From contig CM049311.1 in the NCBI GenBank assembly GCA_026874595.1, forward strand, positions 74,650,953 to 74,714,952: a stretch of 64,000 bases of DNA. Reading direction: 5' to 3'. The position numbers and the translations under genes were made by a program. This stretch comes from Sipunculus nudus (lineage: Eukaryota; Annelida; Sipuncula; Golfingiida; Sipunculidae). Every line of letters begins with the position of its first letter. The first letter of the stretch is position 1. The notes beneath the pieces were generated by a model. That model was not told the origin of the DNA. It was given only the letters and a program-made list of their open reading frames with translations, and searched no databases. This document shows positions 875 through 38,476 of this stretch, one piece after another.

Positions 875-3800
875 CTGAAAATAATGACGACATACAAATA
901 CAGATCTCATCTGTTGACACATCAGACTCGGAGCAATCTCTGTCATAATGTGGCAAGCATCAGCTTAACCTGCAGCTATGGTTGACACCACATGGTGACA
1001 CATACGGGCAGGACTGCATCGACCATAACCAGCCTTTCATGTTGATGAACTGAAGGCTGTTTTAGGCAGCAAATGCAACTTTTCTGCTGCACATGGTAAA
1101 TTCCAGTGTTTAATTTCAATATTTTATTATAATGCATTCTTTTGAGGTAAAATATATAACATTATCACTGTGTTTATTATCAATTTGGTCAATCAGGCGA
1201 TTTTCAGTCATTATAGGCCATCTTGGGCAGCTTCTATACATCTACAGCATTAATGTGTTTGTTCAATTTTGCATATTACATATCCAATTTAATGTTTCAT
1301 CATTCCTTTGTGAAATTCATGAAAACTAGAAGAGAATAAGGACTTAATTCCTGTTGGCACATACAACGCATATGACTCAATAATGCATCAAATTACAAGG
1401 ACTGCAGGTTATCTTTACCTTTTTGGATGGCTGACTAGATGTGTTATCTGTGCGTTTCCTCTTGTTGTAAACCACACGTGGGCTTTCTCCAAGTACTGCA
1501 GTCTTTTGTTGACCACCTGATGGCACATCCTTGCCAATATGATTTTCCTTGGATTTTGCGTCACATAAATTACTAGAACTAGTCTTGTTTTCCTGCACAA
1601 CATCCTCCTGATTATCAGCAGAATCTAAACTTTTAGTCTGGCACTTTTTAGTATCAGCCACCAAACTCGGATCAGACACACATTTACTATTTTGGTTTAT
1701 AATGGAAGTCCTAACTTGTGAAGTTTTGCTTGGTCGCTTATCCTCAGATGCTGTCTGTCTGTAATTACATGAATCTTTTGTAGTTTGATTTTCTGAACCC
1801 CCACCAGGTGTCAGGCTGTCTGTGTTTGCATTTGTTACTTGAGAACCATTTTGTGATGTCACAAACACTGGCGTATCACTTTTAGAGTTCGCAGCAGTAC
1901 AACTTGACACAACATCTGAAGTTTTATTTCCACTGGGACAACTTTGAGAATTCTTATTTTTACCTATCCTCATTTTAAACTGCTTATTAATCAATCTTCC
2001 TTTGGCAACTACATCTTTAAGGGGTACACAGCGTGCACAGTTAAGAAATTCTGATAAACCAGTGCTGCCACCTGGTGAGGACACACTAGGTTGACTCATC
2101 ATGCTGCCGTGATTAACAGCAGATGTAGCATCAACAGTTCTGCCAGGACTGGCCACAGCATCACATGCTTTTGGCCATAGATTAGTTTTAACTGTGTCCC
2201 TAGTTGGCATCTTGAGGGCAGCCTTGACCTGATTATGGCTGGTGGTATCCATACCATCACCTGCACTTGGCTTATTTTTCACCTGGTTTGTGTCTCCGTC
2301 AGCACACTGACCTGACTCTGTACCATTCTCTCTTTGTGGTCTCCCTTTAATGCTACACTTATCTGTACATCGGTCACTCGTTTTTACAGGAGCTACCATT
2401 GCTCCACCCTTGACCTGTTTACAGACTGGACCAGACACTGGTAAAGACGCCACATTCTGCAAAGCCTCTGTACTGCATGATACAGTGTTACCTGTCCCTG
2501 CCATATTCCCAGAACAGGAAATACTGTCATTGTCACAAGCAGTATCAGCTTTACCATTCAGCAACTCATTTTTTGACCCTGTTGCTTTTCTGGAGCAATT
2601 TGATAAATTACCTTTATTTTCAGCTACTGATTCTGTTACATTGTCACTAGAGTGGAGGTTGGTTTGAAGTTTGCTTACAGACACAAGTTTCTCCTTATGT
2701 TCAGGGTATTTCTCACACTTACTTTTGGAAACATAGCATTTACCTGTATTGTCTGTATTGTTCTCATTTCCTTTCCTACTTTTCTTATTCCTAGTTTTGC
2801 TTTTGATATTTTTAGAATTATTGTTCAGCTCAGATGTTTCCACTGTCTTTGTTTTCCCATTGTTCTGGCAGACCTCTGTTTCTGTTACACCATTGCAGCT
2901 CTCTCCTGGTTTGCTTTTGTTACAGACCGTGGACAAGCTAGTGTGCTCTGTTGTAAGTACTTGTTTTTCTACTGGTGATTTGTGATCACAAGTAACTGCA
3001 GAATTCTGTACACTGACAGGTTCATTTTGTATGTTATTATTGCTATGCATGTTTGGTATTTCACCACTGCATTCAGCAGTCTCTTTGTCACCTGGCACTG
3101 ATGTATTAGCATTCTGCCGAGCTATTACTGGTTCTGTTTCTGATTCACAATGACTAGATGCTGAATTATGCTGAGAAGTGATCTCTTTTTCATGCCTTGT
3201 GTTACCATGATTACATGGTGAAGATCTACTTTTAAACAGAAATGCTTCTGTTCGTTTTGGACGTTCCCTTAAACATTCCTGCACGAGCCGCTGCAACATG
3301 GGAGATCTTTCAGGTGAACTAAACCCCACTTGACTTGGATTCTTTTGTGGAGTGCACATTTCTTTTTCCTTTCTTGGGGTAATAACAGGTGCTTTGGCCA
3401 GATTTATAAGAGTTTCTGCTACCTCACTCTCTGTTTTTGTATTTAATGAATTGTATGGTCTCAAGTCTGGCTTGCTGACATTAGAAGTCCTACTTGAATT
3501 ACTTAACAGGGAGTCTGATGGCATATCTATGGATGCCGAATCTTTCTGTGGTGTGTAAAAACTTCCTAATGGTGATTCTCCACCAAAACTTCTCTTATGA
3601 GGGGTACCTGAATGACTGTTTGGACAGTACAGATCAGTTTTTTCTATCCTTGAAGCTGAGGGGTCATGCAATTCTGTCAGCACACTAGCTGCTATCTGTG
3701 CTTCAATAATAGAGTCATTAGGATCAGCTTCCATTGAAGCATCCATTATCATTTCTTCTACTGCCTTCTCTGACTTTGTTGGTGTTTTAGGCTTTTTGTT

Positions 3801-6800
3801 ATTTGTAGGCTGTTTTATTCTGAGCATTTTTCTCACCCCTGAGAGTGAATCATTGTTTTCACTTCCTTTACTTCTCACAGCCTTTTTAGCTGGGGATGGC
3901 AAACACTCCAGATCAGATGAACTTTCAATATTTTTCTGTTCTGAAGATTCTGGGGGGTTTGCTTTTGCCTTTGAATCAGGCTGTTTTGCATTTTCTTTCT
4001 TTAACCGTGAACTGCTTCTTGTGGGCTTCTTCGGTGTCACCTCTTTCTGAACTTTCTTGTTTGGGAATGGAAGTTTGACTTTGAGACCAGCCTTTTTCTT
4101 TTGGTGTTTTGAAGGGGATGGTGAGAGAACGCGCTTTAGTTTGTCACTTGGATTTTTTACTGGAGTCCTTGCTTTCATAACCAAAGTCCGTTTACTAGGC
4201 GACTGAGTAGCCACAAACAAATCATTTATATTCTTCTTTGCAGTTTCACTAATAACTAATGGCTTCACAGGACGTTTTACTGCTTGATTTTCATTGCTCT
4301 TTGATGTTTCAGGACTTCCAGACTTTCTGGACACTCTTTTGGGAACATTTTTCTTATTAACAAGATCTGGAGACAATTTCTCTTTGCATGCTGCTAATGA
4401 AATCAAAGGTAAATCATCTTCAGCCTCATCATCACTCAAATCTGGAAGATAATCCTGCTTCACAGCAACCTCATCTTTATCACATTCATCTCTATTCTCA
4501 TTTGAAGAAACCTCATGGGTAACGTTTTCTTTTCTCTTATCTGCTCTAACTGGTTTATCTACTTGATGTGATTTGTTTTCTGTCTTATCACTCAATGAAG
4601 AAGCACACTCAAGTTCTTTCTTTGCTGGTGATTTTAATTTCTTTGCACCTTTTCTCTTGGGAGAACTCAATGTTTTGGTACTTTTGCTTGACTTCTTGCT
4701 TGGTGTTTCCTGTTTGCTTGTTAGACAGTTTTTGATGGGTACAGTTAGTGTATTAGTTAATTCTTCTATACCCATACCCTCAATATTATGAACAACACTG
4801 GAAGCTGTTGAATGTTTACTAATATTAACTTCCTGAACTTGGCTGTTAGCGGTTTTCTCAGACCCTGTCTTTGAAGAATTTCTTTGTGAGCTATTTCGGC
4901 TTGGCTTTCTGGACTTAGTTGTGTTTGATGACTTTCCCTTTCTGCTAGAAGATGTGGTCTGGTTGCCTTTTTTGGACACCACATTTTTGCTCATGCTCAT
5001 ATCACCAAGGTCTGCCAGGTCTAAAGTGTGCAGGTCTAAAGTGGCAGCCTCCCCTTGAGATTCTGACGGAGCTGGCTCTGGCTGCTGGGCTTCCACTGCA
5101 TCCAATAAAAGACTTGATTGCTGCAAGTCAACACAGGACTGATCATCCTGGATTGTTACAACAGCACCAAGGTCAATGTCCTTTACCACCTGTAATGTCT
5201 GTGGGGACAAGGTCGAGTTTATGGAAAATGGAGCCAGCTGAAGTTGCATGGCCACTGGTGTAGGTGGCGCCAGCTGTACCTTATTCGTTCCTGGAGTCAT
5301 TGCTAGCTGTCCCTGGTCAACTAAAGGTACAGTAAGTGTTAGTTCAGATTGGTTTTCTGTCATAGTTGCAGTTGTAACATCTTCAGGTATTCCATTCCCA
5401 GGAGTGCTCAAAACTGAAAGAACAAAATTGATTAAAGGATATCTTCTATTATTATTTATGTTAGTAACAAAACAGAATACTCAAGGTTCACTTAAAAATA
5501 CTAATCCTGAATTATTTCAAGGTTACATGTGGGAGGATATATGATCACATTTTTCACATGGGTAAGATGTCAGAGAGCACACAGCAATCTGGTTTCAGTA
5601 TTGTTGTGGATATTGCTTATTTAAGGGGTTTGTAGTTCTTGATGGCAAGTTATTTTAATTACATAATGGACTTTGCAATCAGAGAGACTGTAAACACGTG
5701 ACCCATGTGTCATTACACTCAGCTGACTAGGAAGACATTCACAAAAGAAATTTTATCATCTGAATGCCAAATTTTGTTGGTGGTATCCCCATTCAACTGT
5801 AGCAATTAAAGTTCTTTAAAAACAACAAGAAGAAACAGTTTCATGATAACATGTCCAGCCATTACCATGAAATCTAGCCAGTCTTTTTGTATGCAGTCAG
5901 TTCCGCTAAAAATGATCATGCACATTTTTGAAGGACATCTTTGGATGTAATGACAGAAGATTCTAGGTCCAACAGTAAAGTTTTGTCTGACTGTCTGCTT
6001 TAAATTTTTTTGGCCAATAATAAAAATCCCCATGTCCTTACTTCAGGTTTCCATGGAGATTGTCCAAAATGTTGGTCAGTAGCACTCAAAATATAGGTCA
6101 CCATGACCTAATTTCAGATTTCCATGGAGATTGCCTAAGACTTCCCTGTATATTACATTGTAACATTCTAGGGCTAGCAGATACAATTTGTGGCTATCTG
6201 ATTTTCAGGGTGTTTAAAATCATGCTCTTAACCCATAGTTCACAGAATATAGGTCACCCTGACCAAAATCAGGTTTCCATGCAGATTTACCCAGGACCTG
6301 CCAGAATGTCATGTTGGAAGATTCTAGGCCTAGCGGATTATCATATATATATATAAGCATATGAGAAGCTAAGAGGAAATGAGAAGCTAAGAGGAAATGG
6401 CCCACCTACTTGGTTATAGTAAAGTTTTAAATATCTGATTGCAAAACTAATACTCTGACAAGATTGTAATGAAGAAAAACAGTAAAAGTTTTGAGATAGT
6501 GTGATTCATATGTTAAATTTAATGGACTGATACCTGTATTTCACTTTCAGGGGAATAATGCATTTAAGTTTATATTAAACCTTATTTTTTAGCATTTCCA
6601 CTTTTCCATTAATAGTTTTTATCATATTCATTTTTAACAAGTTTAATAAAATTGTAATAAAACAAATCTGAAAATATAAGTTAAAATATCAAAACTGTAA
6701 GTTGCAATCATTATTTATCCAGAGTTAGCTCAAATCAGGTTATATAATGCTTACACATATATTTTATTGTATCGCAAGACAGTCTTTTTTTTATGAGCTG

Positions 6801-9800
6801 TTGACAGTTCAACAGTTTACTAATTTGTGTAATGAGATCCAATTTTATTAATAAACCTTTATTTCTATTTTATGATATGCATACAGTTGCAAAACATCCC
6901 AACTCCACTGGTAGGGGGGATTTAATCATTGGGGGGGGGGGAAGAAGGAGGGTTATGATGGGAGTTACAACACCTTTGTCTTTCTATATATATTTTCTTT
7001 AATTATTAAATTTTATGCTATAGCAATAGATCTATTATTTAAAGCGCCAATGAGCAGGGACTTAGAGGATGGGGTAATGGGATGGTAGGAGTTACAACAC
7101 CTTTGCATATACATACAGGATATGAAATTTAATTCAACAGAAAAAAAAGTTTATTCATTATTATTAAATATTTAAAACAAAGAAACAAATCAAATCATTT
7201 TAATTCCCATTCTACTTAGCCAGGAAATTAAAGCCGTATATCTCCTGGCTCTGAAAATTAAATCAAATGTACTTAAAAGAGAAACAAGGGACCCATGGGT
7301 CACTGTGCTCAGCTGAAGTTGACCTTGAAGGTAAAAATCTAAAATCAATATCAAATGGAGATAAAGTGTGAGAGGAAGAAGTAATATAGGCCATGGTTGG
7401 TTTATATGATTGGTTTGTATTGATGAGCAAGAAATTGTTGCAAATAATATTTTATGACCTGACCATATGTTTCCTAATGTTAAAACTAAAAGCATGTGGG
7501 CAGTTTGTGAACAAATGATCTTTACTATTACCATGATCATAGGTTGGATTTTTGATTACCTGTTGACATTTTAGTAGTTTACACATTTGTTCAATTGAAT
7601 CTATTTTTTTATAATATATATTATTAGATATATATACATTTTTTATTTTATGAAATGTAAACAGTTGAAATATAATTAATGTCCCCAGTCCTCAGATGAA
7701 AGGACTTGGTGGTGGTGGGGAGGGGGCTGTGTGGAATGATGGGAGTGACAAGATATCTGTATTATTATAGTGTATATACACATAGGATTTTCACTTTATT
7801 AAACAATGATTACAGGATAAAACAAGGGACCTATGGGTCACGGCGCTCAGCTGTTATATAAGATAAAACTAGAATATCAGCAGAAGCTGACAAAAGCCCT
7901 CAGCCAAAAGAACAGTGTTTAGAGGTGGTAACAGTAACAAGTACTAAATATCTGTTCTCACATGGATGTATATCTGTACATGTCTCAGTTATAAATTTAA
8001 AATGGAGAGGCATGCACCATGATTCATAAAAATCCACCAAATGCTTCCTGAAAAATAAGCTTCTATGTTTTATTCTATTATCAGCTCTGTGACCTTGAAA
8101 AGTATGTCAAGGTCACCCATCTTTGAACTTGACCGAGATTTTGTCGATATACAGCTTCACCAGAAAATAAAATTCCTATTGTGAATCCTTTTAGAGATAT
8201 CCCGTGCACAAGGCCAAAGTTGAAAAATCCAAGAAAAATTCATTAAAAATAAGAAATTGCAGGTGGCGCCCCCAAACTTGTGCAGCAGTTACAGACCATC
8301 ACTCCCTATGATCATAGTAAGTATTGTGAAAATCCAGCCAATGGTTCCTGAGAAATAAGCTTCTAAATGTATTTTCTATAATCAGCTCTAAAACATAGAA
8401 AAATAGGTCAAGGTCACCCATCTTCGAACTTGAACGAGATTTTGTCAATATACATCTTCACCGAAAAAATAAAATTCCTACGGTGAATCCTTTTAGGTAT
8501 ATCCTGCTCACAAGCCCAAAGTTGAAAAATCCGATAAAAATTCATAAAAAATAAGATATTGTAGGTGGCGCCACCAAACTTGTGTAGCAGGTACAGATTA
8601 TCAGTCCCAATAATCATAGTAAGTTTTGTGAAAATCCACCAAATGGTTCCTGAGTAATTAGCATCTAAGTGTTTTTCTATAATCAGCTCTAAAATGTAGA
8701 AAAATAGGTCAAGGTCCCCCATCTTCGAACTTGACCCAGATTTTGTCGATATACATCTTTACCGAGGAAATAAAATTCTGACGGTGAATCCTTTTCAAGA
8801 TATCCCGCTCACAAGGTAAAAGTTAACGGACGCCGGACGGACGGACGGACAGCTTGGGTGACGACAATAGCCCATCAGCCTAAGGGCTGAGGGCTAAATA
8901 TATGATTTTGAAATGAGGCACATGCTGGTTTTGTGTGGAAATAAATATAAGCTGTATTATGAGTTGTTAGTGTTAAGCTTATGTATGATTTTGATAGTTT
9001 CTTTGGAGAATGGGAGGAGATTGATTTCATTTATTTTATTAACAAATGGAGTGCCACTGTCATACAGATTTTGACTTGGCCATATAACTGAAAAGCAGCA
9101 CATATAAGATAAGAGTGTAACTATTTATTAAAATTTAATAACAAATATTGTGCCAAATATAATTTTTATTAAAAATAATAAGAGAATCATATGATTTTTT
9201 AAATAAAATATAACTGAAATGATTATTAAAATAATATTATAGAATACATTTATGAATGCATTGGAGTTTTCAGTACATGCTTAATTTTATTCACCGAAAT
9301 AAAATAAAAGATTCAGTACATTTGATAAAATAAAAACATCTTTTCAAATAAAGTATACACACTGTTGGTTGAATGAGGGACAAACAATATCATTATACTA
9401 ATTACAATCTCAGCTATAATTAATTACTGGAATTAATAGTCAATTTCACACCTGGTGAAGTTTTACTCTTCTGAAGTAAAGCATTACTTATCTGATGAAC
9501 ACCCACACTTTCATAGCAATACATCACTTTGTGGACACAATTAAATGTGCACTTTAATCATTGTAACCCTGGTGGTACAATACAAAATCTAAAATGTAGC
9601 ATGTCCAAGAATAAAATAAAATACAGAAAAAACATTCATCTAGTTTATGCACCAGCTGGGGGGGGGGGGGCAGAGTGCAGGGCAGAGGGGAAGCCTGCTA
9701 GTAGTGGCCAAGCTGGGCTAAGGCAAGCTGCCTGGGGTGGGTTACATAATGCAAGTGAAGGCTGTACTACTAGGTGGTCCAGATGTAAACAACACTTGAC

Positions 9801-12800
9801 ATGGTGTATGAAAACTTGAATAAAAGCTACTCTTTTCAAACAATTTCTTTGAAATTTCAGATTTTAAAAGATTAAATCCTTATGTATATATGCTGTGAAA
9901 ATAAAATCAACAGTACTTACAGGAAAAAAACGTGCCACTGCCAAATTTGGACAAAATTTAAGGTGCTGATTTTTTATTTATGCTAATAACTTGAACAATT
10001 TGTAAAATTCAGATCTAATTTTGGGTAAACAATTGAATCTTGATTAAATAAAGTTATATTCCTGAAAAAAGTCTCCAGCTTCAGCAATTTTCATGTAAAG
10101 TGAGCAAATATATTTCCTGATTTTTAAAAAATTGCATTATATTTGGGCCTATAACTTCAAAATAATACCCAATACTGACCTAATTTTTGGTATGTGCACA
10201 GAAAATGTATGGAAGAATATGAATACTAAATCTGAACAAAAACAGATCAGTGGTTTTGATATTAGGCAGCCTTGAAGTGTAACAATGGCTTTTTTATGGA
10301 AAACGGAGGTTTTTCCTTAATATCTCGAAGGAACGAAGTTCTAATGACCCAATTTTAGGTATGGTAGGAGATTTTGGGGACATCTAATGGTATGCAGAAT
10401 TTTGGATTCGTAGGTCCAACAGTTTTAAAATGTGCCCTGTTAACAGACGGATGGCCGGACGGACGACTGACAAAGGACCACGACTAAAGCTCAGATGACT
10501 AATAGTCAGCTGAGCTAAAAATTCATTCATAATTACTTTATATTTAAAAACAGACAGACAGACTGGTAGACAAACAAAGCTGATAATATATGAAATTTCA
10601 ATTATTTTTTAATTTATTTATTATATCAAAAAGTTTAACATCTATTTTCATATCTCGAAGGAACAAAGTCATACTGACCCAATTTTTGGTATGGTAAGAG
10701 ATTTTTGGAACATCTAATGGTATTTTGAATTTTGGATTCGTAGGTCTAACGGTTTCAAAACGTGCCAGTCTAACGGACAGACAGACGGACCGACAGACAA
10801 TGGACCATGACTATATAGCTCAGATGACTTACAGTCAGCTGAGCTAAAAACATGCCAAGGTCAAATTTGGACAAAATTTAAGGTTCCATTTTCTTATTTT
10901 TGCTAATAATTTAAAAAATTTTGAAAATGGTGACCTAATTTTGGGTATACAATTACATTTTTATAAATTAATCTTATATTACTAAAAAAAGATCCCCAGC
11001 TTTCACATTTATAGTGTAAATTGATCAATTATCATTCCTGCTTTTATACAAAGTGTTTATGTTGGGGCCCATAACTTTTTTAGACTATATAGTACTGACC
11101 TAATAACAGGCATGTACATCTAATACTTATAAAAGGAATTCAGTTCACCTTTGTACGCGGTGTTCTCTAAAACTGCGTTGTGTACAATATTGTGCCATAC
11201 ATCATTTTAAAGGTTATTATCCCCGCAGTGACATAGGCGATATGAAAATAAATAATTTTTAATATACACATAATTTTGAGTGATTTTTCCGTTTTCTTAC
11301 CGAGCACAGCCGAATTGCCTTTGGCAATCACCTGAATGCGTGCATCGTGGTCACTTAACCTCTAACACTAAGGACTATAGTTCATATGATTAACGCTTGC
11401 TTTCAATGAGGGATTTGACCCACGTGCGTGGTCAGTAAAAGAGAAAAACACATGTTTCCGCTTTATGAAACCTAGGAGGATTAATGACAAAACCTAATTC
11501 AAGGTCCCGAGTTCAGGAACAGGGCTGGGGTGGTGTCGGGGGTCTGAAAATGGGATACAGACCCACTGCATGGAGTCTCGCTGGGTCCGCTTCTGCTACT
11601 TACGATGTATGTATATTTCTGTTTCCTTCTTCAGGAACAGTTTCCTTGCAACGTACATTTAATTAATCTAATGTTTTCCTCACATCAACCTATTCTTTAT
11701 ACGTCCAACAATAGAAACCAGTCAAATATCAACGAAACACTGTATGCCTCCGCGTCTCATTCCGGTTCGCAATGTAAATCATCACTGACCAGGTCTTTAA
11801 GGTAAACATACCGGGATATGATATTTGCTACGAGCACAGCGCCACAAAATAACAGTAAAAATTATTTGTACATATTGTATTCCGAGAGTATCCCACTAAA
11901 AATCTATATTTTCTTTTAACTTTTATAATAAAAAATCAGCCAACCTTCAATATCTCAGTAAATATATCTCCCAAACCCCGGTGAAAAGCCCGGTATGCCG
12001 GGTTTATCAGCTAGTAAGTTATATAGAGAAAATTATTTATGGAAAATATGAAGAAAATAAGTGAGTGGTTTTTATATTAGGCATTCCTGAAGTGTAAAAA
12101 TGATTTTAATAAAAAAAAAATTGAGGGTTTCCTTAATTTCTCAAAGGAAAAAGGTTGCAGAGACCCAGTTTTTGGCTTGAAAGGAAATCATAGGAACATC
12201 TAACAATATGCCAATTTTTGGATTACCAGGCAAAGCTGTAGTAAACAAAAGTGGGGTCATGATGCTAGAAAATACAAATACAATTAGGCTTCTAAAAAAC
12301 TTCAATAGCTAGACTATTTTTTTAGCTTATACTTTCAAATTTGGAAAAATTAATCAGATTAAATCCACATGTAAAACTGGCTGTGAAAATTAAATCAAAT
12401 GTACTTATAAGAAAAAACATGCCATGGTCAAAGTTGGGCAAAATTTAAGGTACCAATTTTTTATTTTTGCTAATATTTTAAAAAATAATGCTAATATTTT
12501 AAAAGTCCTTTGCTTTTACATGTTTTGTGTTAAGTGATCAAATATCTTTCCTGATTTTTTACAAATGCAATATGTTTGGGCCCATAACTATTTTAAATTA
12601 TATAATACAGACCTAATTTCTGACATGTACATAGGAACTATGCAGAGGAATATTTATGGTAAAAACAAGGAAAAACAGATGAGTGGTTTTGATATTTGGC
12701 AGTCCTGAAGTGTGAAAATAGGTTTTTAATAAAAAATTAAGGTTTTTCCTTAATTTCTCAAGGGAACAAAGTTGCAAAGACCCAGTTTTAGGCTTGGTAG

Positions 12801-15800
12801 GATATCTTAGGGACATCTAAGATTGTGCTGAATTTAGGAATCCTGGTCTTACGGTTTCAAAATGTGCCACATCTACGGACGGACTGACGGACTACGGACA
12901 ATGGACCACGACTATAGCTCTGATGACTCATAGTCAGCTGAGCTAAAGAGTGCCATGGTCAAAGTTGGACAAAATTTAAGGTGTTGATTTTTTATTAATG
13001 CTAATAACTTGAAAAATATGCAAAATTCAGATCTAATTTTGGGTAAACAATTGAATCTTGATTAAATAAAGTTATATTCCTGAACAAAAAACTCTCTAGC
13101 TTCAGCAGTTCTTATGTTAAGTGAGTAAATATATATCTTGATTTTTTACAAGGTGCATTATGTTTGGGCCCATAACTTGAACACATTAAGCAATGCTGTC
13201 CTAAATTTTGGTATGTACATAGAAAATGTATGGAAGAATAGGCATACTAAATAAGATCAAAAATAGAACAGTGGTTTTGATAAATGGCATTAGAAAACAG
13301 AGGTTTTCTCTTAATATCTCAAAGGAAAGAAGTCATAGTGACCCGATTTTCTGTATGGTAGGAGATTTTGGGGACAACTAACTGTATGCAAAATTTTGGA
13401 TTCTAGGTCCAAAGGTTTCAAAACATGCCCTTTAATGGACGGCTGGACAAACTGATGACGAACAAAGGACCACAACTATAGCTCAGATGACTTATAGTCG
13501 GCTGAGCTAAAAACAGGTGATACCACCAGTCTTCAGGGAATGATGAAACCCTCAATATGCAATCAATCCTTAGATGTTCAGATACTGGAGCTTTAGTATC
13601 AAATTTTAATTATTCTGGAGGGTCCTTTCCAGCCCCATAGCTCAGAGGATGAAGTCAGCTAATTTCAGGTTTCCAAAGAGGTTTTTTATGGACCTTTACA
13701 GGATTTCAGCTAGAGGTTTCTAGGTCAGGCGGTTACAATCTGTGCTCTGTTAACAGACAGACAGATGGTATGACAGACAGACAACAGAAAAAGAGTGATT
13801 GCTATAGCTCAGATGATTTTCAGGCAGCTGAGCTAAAAACACAGTCATAGAATGGTGAGTGAAGGTACAGCAATCAAGAGATCCTGAAAGAAACAAACCT
13901 TGAAATGGGCCAGGAAATGGCAATCAAGGAGACTGTAGGAAACATACCTGGAATAAGGCCAGTAAATGGCAATCAGAGAGACTGTAAGAAACATACCTGG
14001 AATAAGGCCAGTGAATGGCAATAAGAGGGACTGTAAGAAACATACCTGGAATAAGGCCAGTGAATGGCGATAAGAGGGACTGTAAGAAACATACCTGGAA
14101 TAAGGCCAGTGAAAGCCAATCAGAGGGATTGTAAGAAACATTACTGGAACAAGACATTTCTTGGCACCGCAGGTGCCAGAGTATCCCCTGACATAGTAGC
14201 CCCCCCCCCCCCTTTAAGAATAGGCCCCCATTTTTAGCAGCTTATACTGACACTTGGCATATTTATTGGTTCTTTCATCTATCAATCCACAATCTTGTTG
14301 AAGATGTTGGTCCTGTGAGCTTGATCTTTTTAAAGATGTGTCCTGTGACCTTGACCTTTGACCTCATGACCCCAAAATCGATTCGGGTCTTGCTTTTCCA
14401 ATGGGACATATACAAGTCAAGTTTGAAATCTATACATCAATAAAGCAGGAATTATCATCCAGAAACTAATTTTTGGACAGATTGCTCCGGTGACCTTAAC
14501 CTTTGACCTTGTGACCTCAAATTTGATAGGGTTCTTCCTCTCTTGGTAGGTGAACTATAAGTGCAAGATTAAAGATCTGAGATGAAATGTTTGGCTGAAA
14601 ATGCATCTACAATCTTTTTAAAGATGTGTCCTGTGACCTTGACCTTTGACCTCATGACCCCAAAATCCATTGGAGTCTTGCTTTTTCAATGGGACATATA
14701 TAAGTCAAGTTTGAAATCAATACATCAATAAAAGCAGGAATTATCATCCAGAAACTAATTTTTGGACAGATAGCTCCTGTGGCCTTGACCTTTGGCCTTG
14801 TGACCCCAAAATTGATATGGATCATCCACTATTGGCAAGTGAGCTATATATTCAAGATGGAAGACCTGGGATGAAAGTTTGGCTTAAAATGCATCCACAG
14901 TATCTTTTAAGATGCCAGTCCAGTGACCTTGACCTTTGACCCTATCACCCTAGAACCTACAGCGTTCTTAATTTAGTGGTGGGCCATACATGAGTCATGT
15001 TTGAAATCCATATGGCTATCAACACTGGAGATATCATAAGAGGTGTGTGATTTTCACCATATATAGCAATATTCAAGGTCAAGGCCACTCTCATAGGAAA
15101 GGTCATGACCCCAATTTTTATAAACATCATCCCATAACCCATACCTATGTATATGCATAATATAAAAGAAATCTGTCCATTAGTTTTTTACTTATAATGC
15201 TCACAATACTGTAAGGTGGCAATTTTGGGGGTATTAAACGGCATGAAAACAAGTAAAGAATAAAAGGTGGCGCCACCAGTTTCTCGAACATGACAACCCT
15301 ATCCATGATCTTCCATCAACTTGATTTTGGGATAAATCCATGCAAGATTTCTTGAGATATTAAAGAATTTGTGTGATTTTCCCCCAAATTGGACCTATTC
15401 AAGGTCAAGGACACTCTCCTAGTAAAGGTCATGACCTCATTTTAAATAGGCGTCGTCCTCTTACCCATATCTATACATATACCAAGTCTGGTAAAGTTCC
15501 GTGAAAAATTTTTTGGGTTATCGCGCAAACAAGATTTATATGCGTGGCGGCGGCGGGGGGACCGGTATGAAAACATAGTATCCCCCGACTTTGTCTGGGG
15601 ATACAATAAGGCCATGGTATCGCAGTCAGAGGGATTATAAGAAATATACCTCACGTAGGGCCAGGGTATGGCAATCGGAGGGACTGTAATACACATACTT
15701 GGTATAGGGAGTAAAGGTACATCAATGAAGAGGGACTATAAGAAACACATACCTGGTATGGGCACTGGAGGCATGGCAACAACAGGGACCAGAAACTCTT

Positions 15801-18800
15801 GTGGCTGCAGTGAGTTATAATGTTCTGTAAAGAGAAATCACACATTATACAAACCATGAACAAACTGTTATTATCAAAAATTGTACAAGGAAATTATGAA
15901 CATAAATTTTATATTAGAATAAAATTAAAAACACTGTTTTCAATATAAAAACTACATCTGGTGCATCAGCACTTTTTCTTTGGTCATTTTCCATGCCTGT
16001 TACTGCCACTACATAGTTTTATTTCTCATATCAGCAGAAATAACAATGAATAAACAGATTGCTATTTGAATAAATAATATTCTTTTAATAATTTATATAA
16101 TGGTAAACATGGGAACCATGGGTCATTGCAATCAGCTGTCTACATGGGTTAAATAAGACTATATTTAATGGCAATACAGTCTCTGTTCCACAAAAACTGT
16201 TTACAACCACAATTTCTTCAAACATAAACATTTAATTTTATGATGGAGAACCTTTTATGGTCTCTATAGGTGGTAATGGGCTAACAATCCAAGCAAAATA
16301 CCATTTCTTTTCTCCAATGTCACATAATTTATAAAACAAATTCAATGGGGAATGGGTTCGCACCAGGTCACCAACTGATAAGACAGCAAAGATCTTTATT
16401 TTAAAGATTTTATTACCATAACAGACATCAGAAGAAACATCTCTATCATTATGAAGCAATGGAGCTGTAGATCAGCCCAAATGGACTGACTGAGGTGAAA
16501 GTTCACAAATGGTGGTCAAATGGTTGAATAAGTAAATATGTTACAGCCATTTGACTAATCTATCTGTAAAGCATATATAATAGATTCCTTTCTCCTAGTT
16601 CTCACTTCCATGCCATATTGTTTGTAACCTTAAGTTATGCAGCTTACTGCTGAAATCATGAATATATGCACAGTCTTTATGGTCTCCGATACCTAAATTA
16701 AAGTACTGAGGTAATTGAAGAGATCTGTTACAGTGAGCTGCCTGTATTGTAGTTCATCAGTTTGGTAGGTCACCATACACCAGTCATGGACTTTTACTAA
16801 GTGTCCAAATAACAGGTGTCCTTAATAGAGGGGGTGCCTGTGAAGATGTTTCCCTTTAAATAATCACTACTGTTTACCTTTGCCTTTTGCCCATCGCGTC
16901 TTCAACTTTCCAGGTTCATCTTTAGCTTGTTTCACTTTGGCACTGGGGGTTTTGCAGGCAGATTTTTTGGCTGCAACAAACCATAAATACCTGTACACAC
17001 ATTTTATATGGGCTATCTTGGCTCTTTTCCAAAATAAACACCAGTTTTTATGCTACACTCAACAGCAAGTACAATTAACCTCTGTATAAACTGCAGCTAG
17101 ATATGGAGAACACTGAAATATACATGGACTAAAATTTCAACATACAACATGAATGTGAAGAAATGTATGGGAAATATGCACATGTAAAGGCACTCTTGCA
17201 TAAACCGTGAATGTTAAAGGCTTGGCAGTTACTGAACAAGGCAGACAGCAGAACCAATGTGCCAATACAATAGCAACACAGAAGAGAACTGATCTTCTGT
17301 TTCTAACAACGAAGAAGTAACTAGGTGAGGAAACCCTGGTGGCAGATTCAAAATGGGGCTGTTCCGTTTTGAGAACGTCGTCGGTTAAAAGACGTAATAG
17401 CACCCATCATTAGTGACCTACGTTAATCCACGTACAGAAACTGGAATTTAATTTCATACTTACCATTTGATCTTGGCTGTTTTGGCTGTGGTAATCTCTT
17501 TGGAGTTGTTGTGGCCTGTTTGCTCTGACCATCCCCAGCTGTATCAAGTTGAAGTTTCTTGCGGCTGCGACTTGGCTGCCTCCTGCGTGTTTTTTTGGGT
17601 TTTGATTCAGTGCTTGTTACCTGGTTGTTAAGAGCATCTGGGTTTACTGGAAGAAGGACACTTCCTGTGTCTGAGTATACCTCCCCAGTGCTGTGTACTA
17701 CAGGAATCAGTTCAAACACCTCCCGTTCCTGACCGTCAATAACTGCTGTATGACACAGTTTGACCATCTGTGTAGCTTGTTCTACTGGCTGCTGGCTGAC
17801 CGTGGCATGCACGTCTGCTTCAGTGACAACAGAGGACTGGTTTTCAGCTATCATTGCCAGTGTCTGCTGGTCTGCTGAGAGTGAGACCAACTGTGAAATG
17901 TCACTTGATGTCACCTGTAGGCTTTCATATGACACAGGTGCGTTGTCATTTGACACAGGTGGGGTGTGGCAGTAAGGCACAGGTGTGCATGGGGTCAGAG
18001 GGATCTCGCTGTGAGGGGTGAATGGCTGACTGTGTATTGATTGAGGCGTGAACGGTTGACTCTGCGGGGAGAACACCATGTCATCTCCTGGTCTAGATGC
18101 CTCCACTAACTGGCTAGCAGCAGGTGCCCCCTGGCATCCATCATCTGCATCTGAAGCCACAGATGCCGGCGCCAACTGGTTTCCATCACTAGCCTCTGAA
18201 GCAAAAGATGCCAGAGCCCCCTGGTGTTCACCATTCATATCAGTAGTTACATAAGAGGTTGAATCATTTGCTGAACTTGTGACATCTTGGATGGTAGACT
18301 GTAGGAGACGTGTTAAGTTTTCAGCTGTACATGTGATGGTGCCTGCCGTGCTCGTATCACATCCAGATGACTGTGCAATTGTGCCCATACTTATACCAGT
18401 GGAGTCCAGCTGTCCTATCACTGCAGAAGTTGAGCTCTCCCCCAAGCTCTGTCCACTGCTTTGTGCAATTAATGCTCCATATTCTTTCTGAATGAACTCA
18501 TTTTTGTCTGTAATTACAAGAACATTATACATACACAATACCATAAAACCATTTTGTTCCTTTTCTGACATTTATTACACATGCAGTATTTCTTCTACCT
18601 CAAAAGAGTCCAAAAAGGAAATGAAGTTACTATAAAATACTACAAGATAACAACTGGGTGACTGGCGAATTTAGAGAAATAAAGATGCTTAACTTCATAC
18701 TTACAGAAAGTTTAGTAGGAACTAGGAATAATGTAGAGTTACAGGGAACAGTTAAATGTAAAGAATAACAATAAATGATCTCGAGCAAGAATTTTTAACA

Positions 18801-21800
18801 AAAATCAATATTATTAGGGAAAAAAAAAAGGTTTGGTTCTCAGGCACTTTTTTTTCAGAAATCAATGCGGATGGGTGTTTTTTCATTTTTAATTTTTTTT
18901 TGTATGTTTCGATAAAAATGTTTATTGATAAGGAAAAAGCATGATAATAACAGATTTATTTTGCTAAACAAATAAAAGCACTATATAACAAAGGAAATCT
19001 TCACAAAATTGTATGATGTTATCTTCTACAGAGAAATGTCCGAGCGGTTGGCGCTCAAAATTGGTAGATTTCTATTGAAATTCAAAATTAAGATTTTTGA
19101 TGCGGGGGAAAAAATTTGATGCAGGCTGTGCCTGAGAACCATTATTTTTTTGGCCTTATCAATTCAAAATATATATACACACTTTGACAGTAATAACACT
19201 AGGAGTCCCATCAATGAAAACAGTTGTATTATTATGTCTGTTCACTAAAACTCACACAAGTGTAACTGGTGAAAAACAGAAATATACACTCTCTTTCACT
19301 CGGTCACCATGTAATCTGTGTTAAACTATTTTAAAAAGTATATAACAAAATATACTAAATAGGTTTCAAAGCATTGAATTAAACTGAAATTCCCCAATTT
19401 CTTTCCTGCAGTTCACCCTGATGAATTTGGAAATTCCAGGATTGTTCTTTTGTCCTATTTCAGGTATTTCTAGACTAAAACTCTGCATTGCAAATAATCC
19501 AGTATTTATAAAATGATTGGATCAACAAAATATGAAAATAATGAGACAATATAATATAACAGACTGATCATTTTCATTTTTCCCTTCTGCTTTTTTCCCT
19601 TTTGTGAGGGATTTTTCTCAGAATCCCTATCTGGGAAAAAGGAAACTTATTTTTTCCTGTTTTCCCTAATTTCCTGGTTGTAAGGGATCCCTGTACATTA
19701 CAACAGTTCACTCCTTATTCCAGCAGATTTGATGGGAAGGAAATTCAAAAGTTATCCTTGCACCTTCAAATATTTCTTTTAAGGTTAAGGTATCCTTCAT
19801 ATATCATTCAGTGGTTACCATTTCTTTCTTACTCTAATCAAACCATGAATGGCTGTCACTGTATATACTCAGACTTAATATTATTGTATCCGCCAAAACA
19901 GAGTTTTGCGGATACTATTTTTTCAGCTGCACGCCGCCGCCGTCGCGTAGGTGTCCGGAGAACTCCTCCGTAACCGCTGGGCAGAATTTTACGAAACCCG
20001 GTTCAGGTCACATGTGAACTGCTGCGCCCCGATTTTGTTTTGACCTCTGACCTTTCCTCTGCGCTCTGCGTCCGTTTGTGCGTCTGTTTCCACACATAAA
20101 CCCACATATCTCGGGAACCGTTTGACGGATCAGGAAAATTTAAAAAAAAAAGCTTTATAACATACACAAAAAATGGTGGCGCCACCTGCAACCATGTTTA
20201 CACAGTGTCCATCTGTTCGTCTGCCTTGGGTTAAAATCACTCATATCTTTGCAGTGACTTGACTAATTCACCTGAAATTCGGCATGCGCATACATCCTGG
20301 ATAGCTTTCCTGATTTTATGACAGGTGGCACCACCTACATTCAAGTTTACGCTGCAGACATCCAAGCTCATATCTCGGGAACCATTTGACCGATCAGGAA
20401 AATTTTTTTGCACAAACGTAGCCCTAGGAGAGCTTTATAACATACACAAGAAATGGTGGCACCACCTGCAACCATGTTTGCCCAGTGTCCATCTGTTCGT
20501 CTGCCTTGGGTTAAAATCACTCATATCTCTGCAGTGATTTGACTAATTCACCTGAAATTTGGCATGCGTTTACATCCTGGATAGCTTTTCTGATTTTATG
20601 ACAGGTGGCGCCACCTACATTCACGTTTACACTGCAGACATCCAAGCTCATATCTCGGGAACCGTTTGACCGATCTGGCCAAAATTTTGCATGTGTATAG
20701 ATCTCACATAGCTCTTTATCATATGCAAAACTGGTGGCGCCACCTGCAGCCATTTATGCACAGCTCCCGTCTGTTAGTTTGCCATGGGATAAAATCACTC
20801 ATATCTCTGCAGTGACTTGACTAATTCACCTGAAATTCGGCATGCGTATACATCCTGGATAGCTTTTCTGATTTTATGACAGGTGGCGCCACCTACATTT
20901 ATGTTTACGCTGCAGACATCCAAGCTCATATCTCGGGAACCATTTGACCGATTGGACCAAAATTTTGCATGTGTATAGATCTCACATAGCTCTTCATCAT
21001 ACACAAAACTGGTGGCACCACCTGCAGCCATTTTTTCAAAGCTCCCATCTGTTTGTCTGCCATGGGATAAAATCACTCATATCTCGGCAGTGGTTTGACA
21101 TATCTGCCTAAAATTTTGCAGGTTTATACATCCCCAACAGCTCTCTTGATTTTATGACAGGTGGCGCCACCTGCATTCTAGTTTATGCAGCAGACATCCA
21201 AGCTCATATCTTGGGAACCGTTTGACCGATTGGGCCAAAGTTTTGCATGTGTATAGTTCTCACATAGCTCTTTATCATACGCAAAACTGGTGGCACCACC
21301 TTCAACCATTTTTGCACAGCGTCCGTCTGTTTGTCTGTCTCGGGCTAAAATCACTCATAAACATATAGTGGTTTGACTTATCTGCCTCAAATTTTGCATA
21401 TGTATACAACTTGGATGGCTTTCTGGATTTTGTGGTAGGTGGCGAAACCTACATACATCATTTGGCTGCAGACATCCATGCTAATATGCAACACTTCACT
21501 CTATTTCCCCTTGCCACTCAATCCATGCCTCACTTCACCCGTTCCACTCTGATTTAGGCGGATACACGTAGTCGCTTGTCGACTACCCGTATTCTAGTTC
21601 AAATGGCAGATGCTGATTCTAGCCATATGTTAATTAAACATTATCAGTATATTACAGCTGTAACACTTACCAGCACCAAACATATTAAAAAGTGCGTCAA
21701 ACTCAGGGTCTGTCCTTGTCATCTCAATGATACCTTCAATGGCTTCTGTTGACATCTGGGCTTCCTGACAACACAACACAAGACTAAGTGGAACACAAAA

Positions 21801-33800: not shown

Positions 33801-36800
33801 GGCAGAGCCACAAAAGAGCTGGGTATCAGTCTAAGTCCTAGCCCCAAGGAAACACTTCACTGCATTATTGGCAAATTTGTTATGGTACACCTGCCTATAT
33901 ATTCAGTCACAATGTACATAACAAAAAGATTGCTGGGTGTCCCCATTAGGAAGCTGCAATATTTACAAAATGTTCTTCAGAATTTTGTCTATAGCGGAAA
34001 AGTGAACAGTTCTAAGTATTATGATCCCTGGCAGATATATACAATATTACTACTGTAGAGTACCTGACCACATATATGAATGAATGCAACCATGTGTGTG
34101 ATATTCACTGCTTTAGTCCCTTCACTAAATCCCAGCCAACCAAATGCGAGTCAGTTGATGCAAGCATGTGTAAGAATCACTGCTCCAAGTCCTTGGCTAA
34201 AGCAATGCTTCAGAGTAAGTCTGAAACATAACTGGCCACTTGTGGGTCTCATATTGTCAGTTTTTAGGCAGAATTTAATCCAACCACTGGGAAGATAAAA
34301 CAGGTTAAAGGCTGGCTTCTGAACTGTATGCTAGTGTTACATGTGAAACAATAGACACCAGTGTATTACATATGATGTGTAAACATTACAGTATGTACTA
34401 TAAAACAGGCGTGTAATCGCCTTCTCCTTCAATTACAGCCAATAAAAAGCCACAATAGCCATCCTTTCTCCCGCCCCCCCCCCCCCCCACTTATTCCATG
34501 ATTTCCCAATATGTGAGAAAACAGTTTATTTTTGTCACAACACATCTGCTGATCTGACATGGTCACAGATGCCATCCTGCATGCGCTATCAATTCACAAA
34601 GAAATATCTTAAAAGTTTTGAAGTATAGATTTCATAAATTTGACTAGAATGTTTCTTTTGCCAGGGTGCCCATAATCCTCTGCTATTTTGCTATTTCACC
34701 GTTTCATAGCCAAGACTGATTGGTGCCATTTGGTTGGATGAACTATATAATCACAATGATAGAGTACACCTGTTTCTAGAACAATGCGGCATGTTTTTCT
34801 TACTTTCAAGTTTTCTGGCTCCATGTTCATCCAGAATCTCTTTGAGGCTCAAACCTCCAACCTGGAGTGGGTACTGGCGCCCCATGCTGAGCAAAACTGA
34901 ATATTCTGACAGGTATGGGCATTCTTCCATAAACGTACTGTATGACTTGACAAACTTCTCCTCCTCCAGGTATCCTAAAAGTTGAAAAAAATAATGGGTT
35001 ACGAACCTAAGATTACAAGTATAACCTGTGACAAAAGAGCTTATTTAAGGGATAAAATACGGAGGATTATCATGCAGATTCTTTCACACTATCAGTTTGG
35101 ATTTGCTTTATACAAGAGTTTCCCACAAAACCATCCCAGCACACAGTTTCAGTACCTCACATACAGCTGTTAAATACTTTATTTTGGCTTTGCGTGTTGG
35201 TTAACCCAGTCCATGTATGTATGTTTGATACATGTTGTGGCCAGGGCTATGCACTTGCTGTGTTTATGTGATCTCGCATAGTCCAGTGTTTTTAACATTC
35301 TTTCACAGGTGTCAACAATTTAATAAAATAACTAGATGTGTCGGAGCGACACAAATGCCCCCGCCTGGAGCAAATTATACATATTTGTTAAATTTTGTAA
35401 ATTTTTTAAGTTCAGGAGCTGTCATATGGTCAAAAGTCAGTCAACGAGAGCAAAATGCAAACTCAATCTGTAACGGGTCATTATCAAGGAACACACCGAA
35501 AATTAGGTCAGTATCTGCAGGCACTGTGAAAAAAAGTCCATACATGTGCATTTTTCATAAAAATTTCTATTTTTCATGAATATTTCTATGTTCAGGATCT
35601 GTCATATGGTCAAAAATAGGTCAACTGGGACGAAACGCGAACTTGATTTGAAAGTGGTCATTATGCGCCAACAGACAAAAAATAGGCCAGTATCTGTAAG
35701 CATTGCACTGCAAAACTGGAATATTAGAAAAAGCTGATAATCAGTTATAAATTTAAATTGGAGAGGTATGTACCATGTTAAATAACAATTCAACAAATGC
35801 TTCTTGAGAAATAAGCTCCTAAGTTTTTTCTATTCTAGGCTCTATGACCTTGAAAAGTAGGTCAAGATCACTTATCTTTGAATTTGAGCAAGATTTTGTA
35901 AATATGCAATAGCACTGAAGAAATGAAGTTCCTGTGTTGAATATCTTTGGGGATATCCTGCACAAAAGGCCAAAATTGAAAATCTGATAAAAATTCATTA
36001 AAAAATCAGAAATAGTAGGTGGCACCACTAAAATTGTGCAGCTCTTACAGACCATCAGTCCAAATAGCCATAGTAAATTTTGTGAAAATCCACACAATGG
36101 TTCCTGAGATATAAGCTTCTAAGTGTTTTTCTATAATCAGCTCTAAATCAAAGAAAAATAGGTCAAGGTCACCAATCTTCGAACTTGGCCAAGATTTTGT
36201 TGATATACATCTTTACAGAAGAAATAAAAATTCCTATGGCGAATCCTTAAAGAAATATCCTGCTCACAAGGCCAAAGGTGAAAAATCCAATAAAAATCTA
36301 TAAAAAATCAGAAACTGCAGGTGGCATCACCAAACTTGTGCAGCGGGTACAGACCATCAGTCCAAATGAGCATAGTAAGATATATGAAAATTCCACACAA
36401 TGGTTCCTGAGATATAAGCTTCTGAGTGTTTATCTTTAATCAGCTCTAAAATTTAGAAAAATCAGTCAAGGTCACCAATCTTCAAACTTGACCGAGATTT
36501 TATCGATATACATCTTTACTGATGAAATAAAATTTCAATGGGGAATCCTTTTAGAGATATCCCGCTCACAAGGTAAAAGTTAACTGACGCCAGACGGACA
36601 GATGCTGGACAGACAGAAGGAGGGACAGCTTGGGTGACGACAATAGCCCATCAGCCTACAGATGACAACTGACGAGGGCACTGAACAAGTGACCCATGAG
36701 TCATGATGCTCAGCTGACTGACATGATGATTATATGTCTCTAGGGGCCTGGACAGCTGAGTGGTAAAACGCTTGGCTCTCTCTGCTGGTGACCCGGGTTC

Positions 36801-38476
36801 GATCCCCGGCGTGGCTATGAGAGTGGGTTGTAGTTGTCCGTCCAAGGCCAGTGGTTTTCTCTGGGTACTCCAGTTTCCTCCACCCCTGCAGACTACCGAA
36901 CGCCATCACCAGAGCCATGAAGAGTGCCTTGATTAGTTAAGATAACTATTTGTGCAATCCATGTAAAATAAATAAGTTTATATAATATGTCCTTGCACAG
37001 ACAACTAATTAAGATAGGTGGCATCGGTGTTCATGCATATTAGCTTAAGTTCATCAAGACCCATAAGCACAACAAATCTGATGACAATCCAACCAGCCTT
37101 TCATGAAGAATCTGGCAATTTGTGTGTATTTTGCATTATTTCTGGGATGCTCAAACATACCCCAAAATTCTGAGAATATAGGTCAGTGTAACCCAATTTC
37201 AGGTTTCTGGGGAGAACTTTTGAGGCACTCTCAGGATGTCAGTTTAGAAGATTCTGGGCCCAATGGTTATGATTTGTGCCCTACTTAGGTATCAAATTTT
37301 CAATTATTCTGAGGGGTGCTTTATAAGCCTCATAGCTCAGAAAATATGGGTAACAAAGACCTTAATTCATGTTGCCAAGAAAACTTTTCCCAGATCTCCT
37401 TGGATGTCAAGTTTGAAGATTCTAGAACCAATGGTTACAATTTGAGCCCTGTTAAGTGAAGACATCTTTGAAGGTCTCATCAATAGAGAAAAAAATGTGT
37501 TAAATTTTTTTTAAATTTAGGTGGTGTCACCAGTCCACAAGAACTGATGAAACACTCCCTGATGAATATGCATGCAAAGAAACAGGGTGATCAATGCAAT
37601 AGTTGTTTTGATACTGGAGCTTTTGTATCAAATTTTTAGTTATTCTGTGAAGTACTTCTAAGACCCATAGCTCAGAGGATATGGTAACAGAGATCTAATT
37701 TCAGGTTTCCATGGAGTTTTTTATGGACCTCCCAGGATGTCAAGAAAGAAGATTCCAGGTCAAATAGTTATGATTTGTGCCCTGTTAACAGACGACCACA
37801 TCTTTGAAGTTCTCAAAAATAAAGATAAAAATGTGTAAATATTCAAAGAAGTCCAGGTGGCTCCACCAGTCTGCAGAAACTAATAAAAACACTTAATGGT
37901 CAATATCCATGCATAGAATCATGGTGATCTCTGCATTAGTTGTTCAGATACTTCAGCTTTTGTATCAAATTTTCCATTATTCTGAGGGTATTTAGAGTCC
38001 TATAGCTTGAAGGATATGGGTAACAGAGACCTAATTTCAGGTTTCCACAGACACTTTTCATGGGCCTCTTTGCATGACAAGAATGAAGATTCTAGGTTCA
38101 CTTGTTACAATTTGTGCCATGTTAACAGATGACAGCATCCTTAAAGGTCTCAACAAGGGACCTATGGGTCACGACGCTCAGCTGTTATATATGATAAAAA
38201 AATATTATTTAGAAATGAGGCACATGCTGGTTTTGTGTGGTAATAAATATAAGCTGTATTATGAGTTGTTGTTGTTTAGCTTATGTATGATTTTGATAGT
38301 ACAGTAAAACCTGAGAGTTAAGACCACCTGATGTGCCACACCAAAAGCGGTCTTAAGTCACAGGTGGTCTTAAGTCTCAGGTGGTCTAAGTCTCATAAGT
38401 CTCAGCATGAAGCTAACAAAGTATATCAAGGCATATGTGTCTACGTAAACATTTATTTATTTATTATAAAAATACA

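Follow-up and report, generated by a model that had tools for sequence, protein, structure and literature searches.

An array of donor-bearing repeats lies at the start of intron 10 of a gene that we take to be NPAT, on the minus strand of a 64,000-nt stretch of the Sipunculus nudus genome (assembly GCA_026874595.1, contig CM049311.1, positions 74,650,953 to 74,714,952; hereafter the window). The sequence argues that this array is very probably a minisatellite that grew from a tandem duplication of the end of exon 10 together with its donor, and that it represents tolerated growth of a repeat and not a switch. The last 36 nt of exon 10 and the donor recur at a spacing of 49–53 bp into intron 10, in about ten units, which bears out the central observation of an initial annotation of the window. 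The alignment of these 36 nt to the unit scored 22 against a maximum of 14 in 2000 shuffles, which rules out a chance likeness.

Tandem Repeats Finder (TRF) called the array at 13870–14153 (period 49, 5.8 copies), and weaker units extend from within exon 10 (15788) to 15605 (Table 1). The centre is homogeneous, with units u4–u7 differing pairwise at 1–5 of 49 positions, whilst the edge units are decayed and match the consensus at 36–41 of 49. Two insertions split the array. A 155-nt probe from the end of the insert in u3 had 40 scored places in the genome, the best non-self copy being 97% identical; the left edge lay at 15609–15607 in all five fetched copies and the right edge at 14148 in two of the five (the fetched loci were short), and closing the gap restores a unit of exactly 49 nt. 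For the block inserted in u9, 36 of 39 non-self copies of the left edge among the matches listed start at query 57–64, that is at ~13839, 29 of 39 for the right edge end at query 108–111, that is at 5693–5690, and GTGTTT is present on both sides. The array reaches from exon 10 through both insertions to a remnant at 5693–5675, and is longer than the initial annotation had it; without the insertions, intron 10 would measure ~730 nt. The 281-nt array had a single place in the 1.43-Gb genome, in a search that skips very common words, and the 18-mer CAGGTATGTTTCTTACAG was found in three places, all within this array, so that a dispersed element is ruled out as the unit.

Donor arrays also occur at the exon ends of other genes. 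A genome-wide pattern of a donor fused to an acceptor gave 39 matches, against 27 in the reversed control, with two clusters, one being the NPAT array and the other on contig C15, in what is presumably a DNAJC16-like gene (another stretch of this locus gave a thioredoxin match at E 0.0018, below cut-off). Here 11 further donors, at a period of 51, come after that of the exon itself, the unit corresponding to the last 38 exonic and first 13 intronic nt, which are identical to the consensus at 48 of 51 positions; the exon is open and 158 nt long. Nine of the 12 donors score 13.36 and the others 9.23–10.98, the acceptors are weak (the best after each donor scores no more than 4.59), and all 11 extensions of the exon stop at once. 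The feature shared across genes is the copying of an exon end with its donor, a pattern indicative of a tandem duplication spanning that end, whilst of the two arrays scored only that of NPAT has strong acceptors.

Patterns of two donors 17–26 nt apart gave 315 matches against 140 in the reversed control, 54 against 8 and 39 against 23; these counts are of units and not of arrays (of the 39, one array supplies 19 and several others come from a dispersed repeat), and loci for the 315-match pattern were drawn from the first 100 matches listed. We examined 18 loci, comprising the C15 locus and 17 fetched loci, which were chosen mainly as clusters and did not take in every locus listed. In six of the 18, the array begins at the donor of an apparent coding exon, a judgement made by eye on the open frame, the acceptor context and whether the two abut. 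Besides the DNAJC16-like gene (L023), these are a gene with leucine-rich repeats (L026; LRR_8, E 1.5e-12; 21.6 units of 21 bp), a DNA-PKcs-like gene (L028; 54.5 units of 37 bp with 93 donor 9-mers, counting the exon's own), a hydrolase-like gene (L031), an acyl-CoA-synthetase-like gene (L033) and a gene for a membrane protein (L039; DUF7789, E 8.3e-5, below its cut-off). The leucine-rich repeat and DUF7789 names come from domain matches, the other four should be taken as presumptive, and Pfam support was not found for most exons beside these other arrays. Two further arrays (L025 and L037) have their start less than 100 nt from an apparent exon end, and no abutting exon was seen at the remaining ten loci. 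A shuffle test of exonic homology to the unit covered L023, L025, L026 and L028: the observed likeness was reached by none of 1000 shuffles at L023 and L026 and by one of 1000 at L025. Since the search motif, CAGGTRAGT, is a donor consensus and itself selects real donors, and since the counts are of units, the six exon-end arrays show recurrence and not enrichment, and we do not claim them as proof of a special mechanism. Their presence at other genes argues against a switch specific to NPAT.

Some further repeats were seen among these loci. At L028 (G000:C4:88719500-88728500, reverse-complement 3112-3267) a tandem repeat is also present on the acceptor side of the DNA-PKcs-like exon, with four copies of the acceptor and exon start (AG|GGTGGGCATGAT) at a period of ~39, the last being the exon's own. 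L030 (G000:C17:2282000-2290500, reverse-complement 4198-4623) holds 20.3 copies, at 100% match, of a 21-bp unit, TGTCTTACAG|GTAAGTCTGAA, in which an acceptor is joined to a donor; no coding exon was seen to abut it. Finally, CAGGTGAGTAAACTTTTACAG belongs to a dispersed repeat with a donor and an acceptor ~20 nt apart, present on many contigs, and the pattern that it dominates (first 100 of 299 matches listed) was uninformative as an array search.

Within the NPAT array, the 34-nt blocks and the 15-nt spacer joining donor to acceptor that the initial annotation had described are both present. At least four adjacent units had been credited with an acceptor and a donor; three blocks carry both (14079–14046, 14030–13997 and 13981–13948), whereas TTTCTTACAA stands before the block at 14128, which has no acceptor AG (TTACAA, not TTACAG), and a variant block at 13932–13899 carries TTTCCTACAG and AAG|GTTTGT. 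The acceptor at the start of the block, TTTCTTACAG, is splice-like (score 6.70, rank 189 of 3574 AGs on the sense strand, using weight tables), but is outscored by the block's own end, CCTTATTCCAG|GTATGT (acceptor score 9.66, rank 29 of 3574; donor score 9.83), and the units are therefore better viewed as tandem dual-specific (AG|GT) sites. These sites occur at 15752, 15649, 14094, 14045, 13996, 13947 and 13898, the four from 14094 to 13947 being strong and 13898 weak, and are absent at 15698. The donor consensus is weakened in u1, u2 and u8 and lost in u3 and u9, and predicted U1 pairing is −10.2 for exon 10's own donor against −8.3 for the four core copies. As in a splice-donor minisatellite, the array begins at an exon end and its units carry a donor; as in arrays of the UBC type, AG|GT occurs once per unit, but the intron is not bounded at both ends by repeat sites, the exon 11 acceptor at 5413 lying outside the array. 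The strict recursive motif Y5+N0-4YAGGT occurs at two places in intron 10, neither within the units.

Use of these sites would damage NPAT, as had been proposed, with all 30 modelled uses (7 exon extensions and 23 cassettes) giving a premature stop. Extension of exon 10 to any of the seven later donors would read PIPGMCFL and then stop, 18 nt on. Modelled single-unit cassettes stop 31 nt into exon 11, the exception being 15735–15699, which stops inside the insert; most double-unit cassettes stop 6 nt into exon 11 and longer ones inside the insert, and a cassette of three blocks (132 nt), although in frame, is ruled out as harmless by an internal stop. Each of the 23 cassettes would in this sense qualify as a poison exon, its inclusion leading to a premature stop. 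Units need not be used singly, contrary to the initial annotation, as a cassette may combine any acceptor with any donor further on (34 + 49k nt), and reading the units as AG|GT sites gives 49-nt steps. Inclusion of a single unit would probably truncate NPAT rather than trigger exon-junction-dependent decay, because the modelled stops fall in exon 11, the last coding exon found, where decay would not be expected by the general rule.

We infer that a tandem duplication across the end of exon 10, donor included, started the minisatellite. The extra copies would all have landed on the intron side of exon 10's own donor, so that the array could grow without change to the normal mRNA, and the duplication would be tolerated, since the exon keeps its first donor and all that follows that donor counts as intron. 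Copies may then have accumulated, homogenised centrally, decayed at the edges and been split by repeat elements, the normal mRNA remaining unchanged throughout. The AG|GT at unit boundaries would be inherited from the exon–donor junction, and the T-rich core copies would in addition resemble an acceptor. In favour of this account are the match of the exonic 36 nt to the unit, the homogeneous centre with its decayed edges, the splice dinucleotides being retained no more than expected, the breaking of the array by two insertions, the harm to NPAT in all modelled uses, the better predicted U1 pairing of exon 10's own donor, and the like arrangement in the DNAJC16-like gene and at five more apparent exon ends. 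Most likely exon 11 is still spliced to the donor of exon 10 itself and the array is lost with the rest of the intron, with low-level noise at most, and the sequence of the array gave no sign of function.

Several observations weigh against this account. Of the 276 AG|GT sites on the window's sense strand, the four in the core units score highest; a fifth, at 41047, scores almost equally (9.60), and 23 of 100 simulated 64-kb strands contain one site as good, so that one such unit is unsurprising and copying produced four. The donor hexamers of the DNAJC16-like array show no mismatch in 66 (4 of 48 six-column runs there also show none). At the DNA-PKcs-like locus, 86 of 1000 shuffles matched the unit as well as the exonic bases did, which is not significant, so that the array abuts the exon there without shown exonic homology. 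Lastly, the test for constraint on the splice dinucleotides, which the initial annotation had named among its own grounds for refutation, came out negative and so lends no support to a function (9 of 15 dinucleotides kept, against a mean of 9.2 for random column pairs, P 0.66), but its power is low, as five degenerate units entered it.

The proposal of a poison switch on NPAT, in which one or several units are included under regulation and truncate the protein or lower its mRNA, gains from the uniformly early stops in the modelled uses and from the three blocks with both sites and the one variant, yet we consider it very unlikely: its sites show no constraint in the above test, single and double units would stop within the last coding exon found, where decay is unexpected, 34-nt exons are hard to define, and comparable arrays stand at unrelated genes. 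It is also very unlikely that the units form a ladder for recursive splicing, with CCTTATTCCAG|GTATGT as ratchet points, the next donor 49 nt on defining an RS-exon, and the 10.3-kb intron removed stepwise. A strong acceptor is joined to a strong donor in four tandem copies, the intron is long, and in Drosophila (PMC8605326) ratchet points likewise join an acceptor to a donor with a second donor ~50 nt on, RS-exons being ~50 nt. However, no unit carries the strict motif used in PMC10156609, the donors of ratchet point and RS-exon are identical, so that the difference in donor strength described for ratchet points is absent, and the five degenerate units showed no constraint on the dinucleotides; the intron, moreover, owes most of its length to repeat insertions. 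The fly sites are conserved (PMC8605326), whereas the NPAT units, copied in tandem, show no sign of constraint and have a pyrimidine tract that is interrupted.

The direction of copying could also be the reverse, the array having pre-existed in the intron and the exon 10 donor having moved into it, so that the exon end is an exonised unit. Unit E, the copy that includes the exon end, is as near the consensus (39/49) as the intronic edge units, but the 48/51 identity of the DNAJC16-like unit to the end of an open exon fits exon-to-intron copying in that gene, and we hold the reverse direction to be unlikely for NPAT. We likewise give little credence to a broader idea, in which donor minisatellites arise again and again from exon ends in this genome and some, NPAT's included, became working splice ladders that meter full-length mRNA, with copy number as a fast-evolving dial. 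Tandem duplication of the exon 10 end, followed by tolerated growth, remains the reading that we favour.

The closest precedents are human IFI6 and UBC/VCX3A. IFI6 (6-16) has a minisatellite with multiple splice donors (Turri, Cuin and Porter 1995), and two of its downstream units are reported to serve as donors; there, too, a tandem repeat at an exon end supplies splice donors, but the NPAT units are longer (49 bp), carry predicted donors and add acceptor-like sites, and extension of the NPAT exon would meet a stop 18 nt on. In UBC and VCX3A, tandem arrays of dual-specific splice sites have been described, the UBC units being coding, in frame and used stochastically (PMC10809524). They resemble the NPAT array in having AG|GT once per tandem unit and in repeat expansion as the source of splice sites, whereas the NPAT copies are intronic except for the first, their period of 49 shifts the frame, and the 3' end of the intron lies outside the array. 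Intron gain through tandem duplication of AGGT segments, for which 24-bp AGGT duplications present in multiple copies in fission yeast genes are cited (PMC4974935), likewise involves a multi-copy tandem duplication that spans AG|GT, but there a new intron arises inside an exon, whereas in NPAT an intron already present is lengthened at its 5' side. The NPAT array belongs with these cases, sits on the intron side and has sister arrays elsewhere in the genome. Among the open-licence papers listed in literature searches, including those on NPAT in bivalves, tandem recursive sites, exon-boundary minisatellites and bivalve intron minisatellites, no report of this array stood. The array suggests that splice-competent sequence can multiply without visible selection, as exon-end duplication puts ready-made donors, and sometimes acceptors, into an intron where they are seemingly tolerated. 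It also counsels caution, as a repeat dense in splice-like motifs does not amount to evidence for a switch. Several arrays of differing period and gene within one genome would offer a natural experiment on how the spliceosome chooses the first of many near-equal donors, and on shifts of exon boundaries.

Nine exons of the NPAT-like gene were placed on the minus strand from splice context and open frame, the exon numbers 10 and 11 following the initial annotation. One open frame runs across the joined exons 9, 10 and 11, and skipping of exon 10 would keep the frame in our model. The first exon, near 52266 with LPSEIARLVLG, was located using a human N-terminal sequence, and the presumed name rests on that comparison (BLASTP, 32% over 57 aa; E 2e-5, calculated for one comparison); a Pfam search returned no family at E 0.01 and nothing relevant at E 10. 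An NPAT retrocopy that might record splicing was not found, the protein search matching two exons of this locus only.

Table 1 Features of the array and adjoining exons (window positions).
Feature	Positions	Strand	Basis
Exon 10, 72 nt, phase 1-1	15753..15824	-	Acceptor/donor context; open frame joins exons 9 and 11
Unit E: final 36 nt of exon 10 with its donor, plus 15-17 intron nt	15736..15788	-	Alignment to unit consensus
Intron 10, 10,339 nt	15752-5414	-	
Degenerate unit u1	15684..15735	-	nhmmer and alignment, 37/49 to consensus
Degenerate unit u2, acceptor AG lost	15635..15683	-	38/49 to consensus
Unit u3, left part	15605..15634	-	
Repeat element inserted in u3, ~1,460 bp	14148..15607	-	Edges uncertain by 2-3 nt
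Unit u3, right part, ends TTTCTTACAA	14129..14147	-	
Core units u4-u8, five of 49 nt	13884..14128	-	TRF, nhmmer, splice scores
Decayed unit u9, left part	13840..13883	-	36/49 to consensus once joined across insertion
Block of dispersed repeats inserted in u9, 8.1 kb	5694..13839	-	Edges shared by other copies
Unit-boundary remnant beyond insertion, 19-nt exact	5675..5693	-	Longest chance match 15 in 60 simulated windows
Exon 11, last coding exon found	1377..5413	-	Acceptor, in-frame join, stop

Other tandem repeats were seen in or beside the same gene. Coding exon 9 (window 18126-18225, minus strand) contains 2.2 copies of a 45-bp repeat, 45 being a multiple of three, and several tandem arrays with a period of ~280-340 bp lie in introns of the gene or next to the gene at window positions 20161-21487, 8029-8815, 35953-36580, 37289-38153 and 47107-47862.

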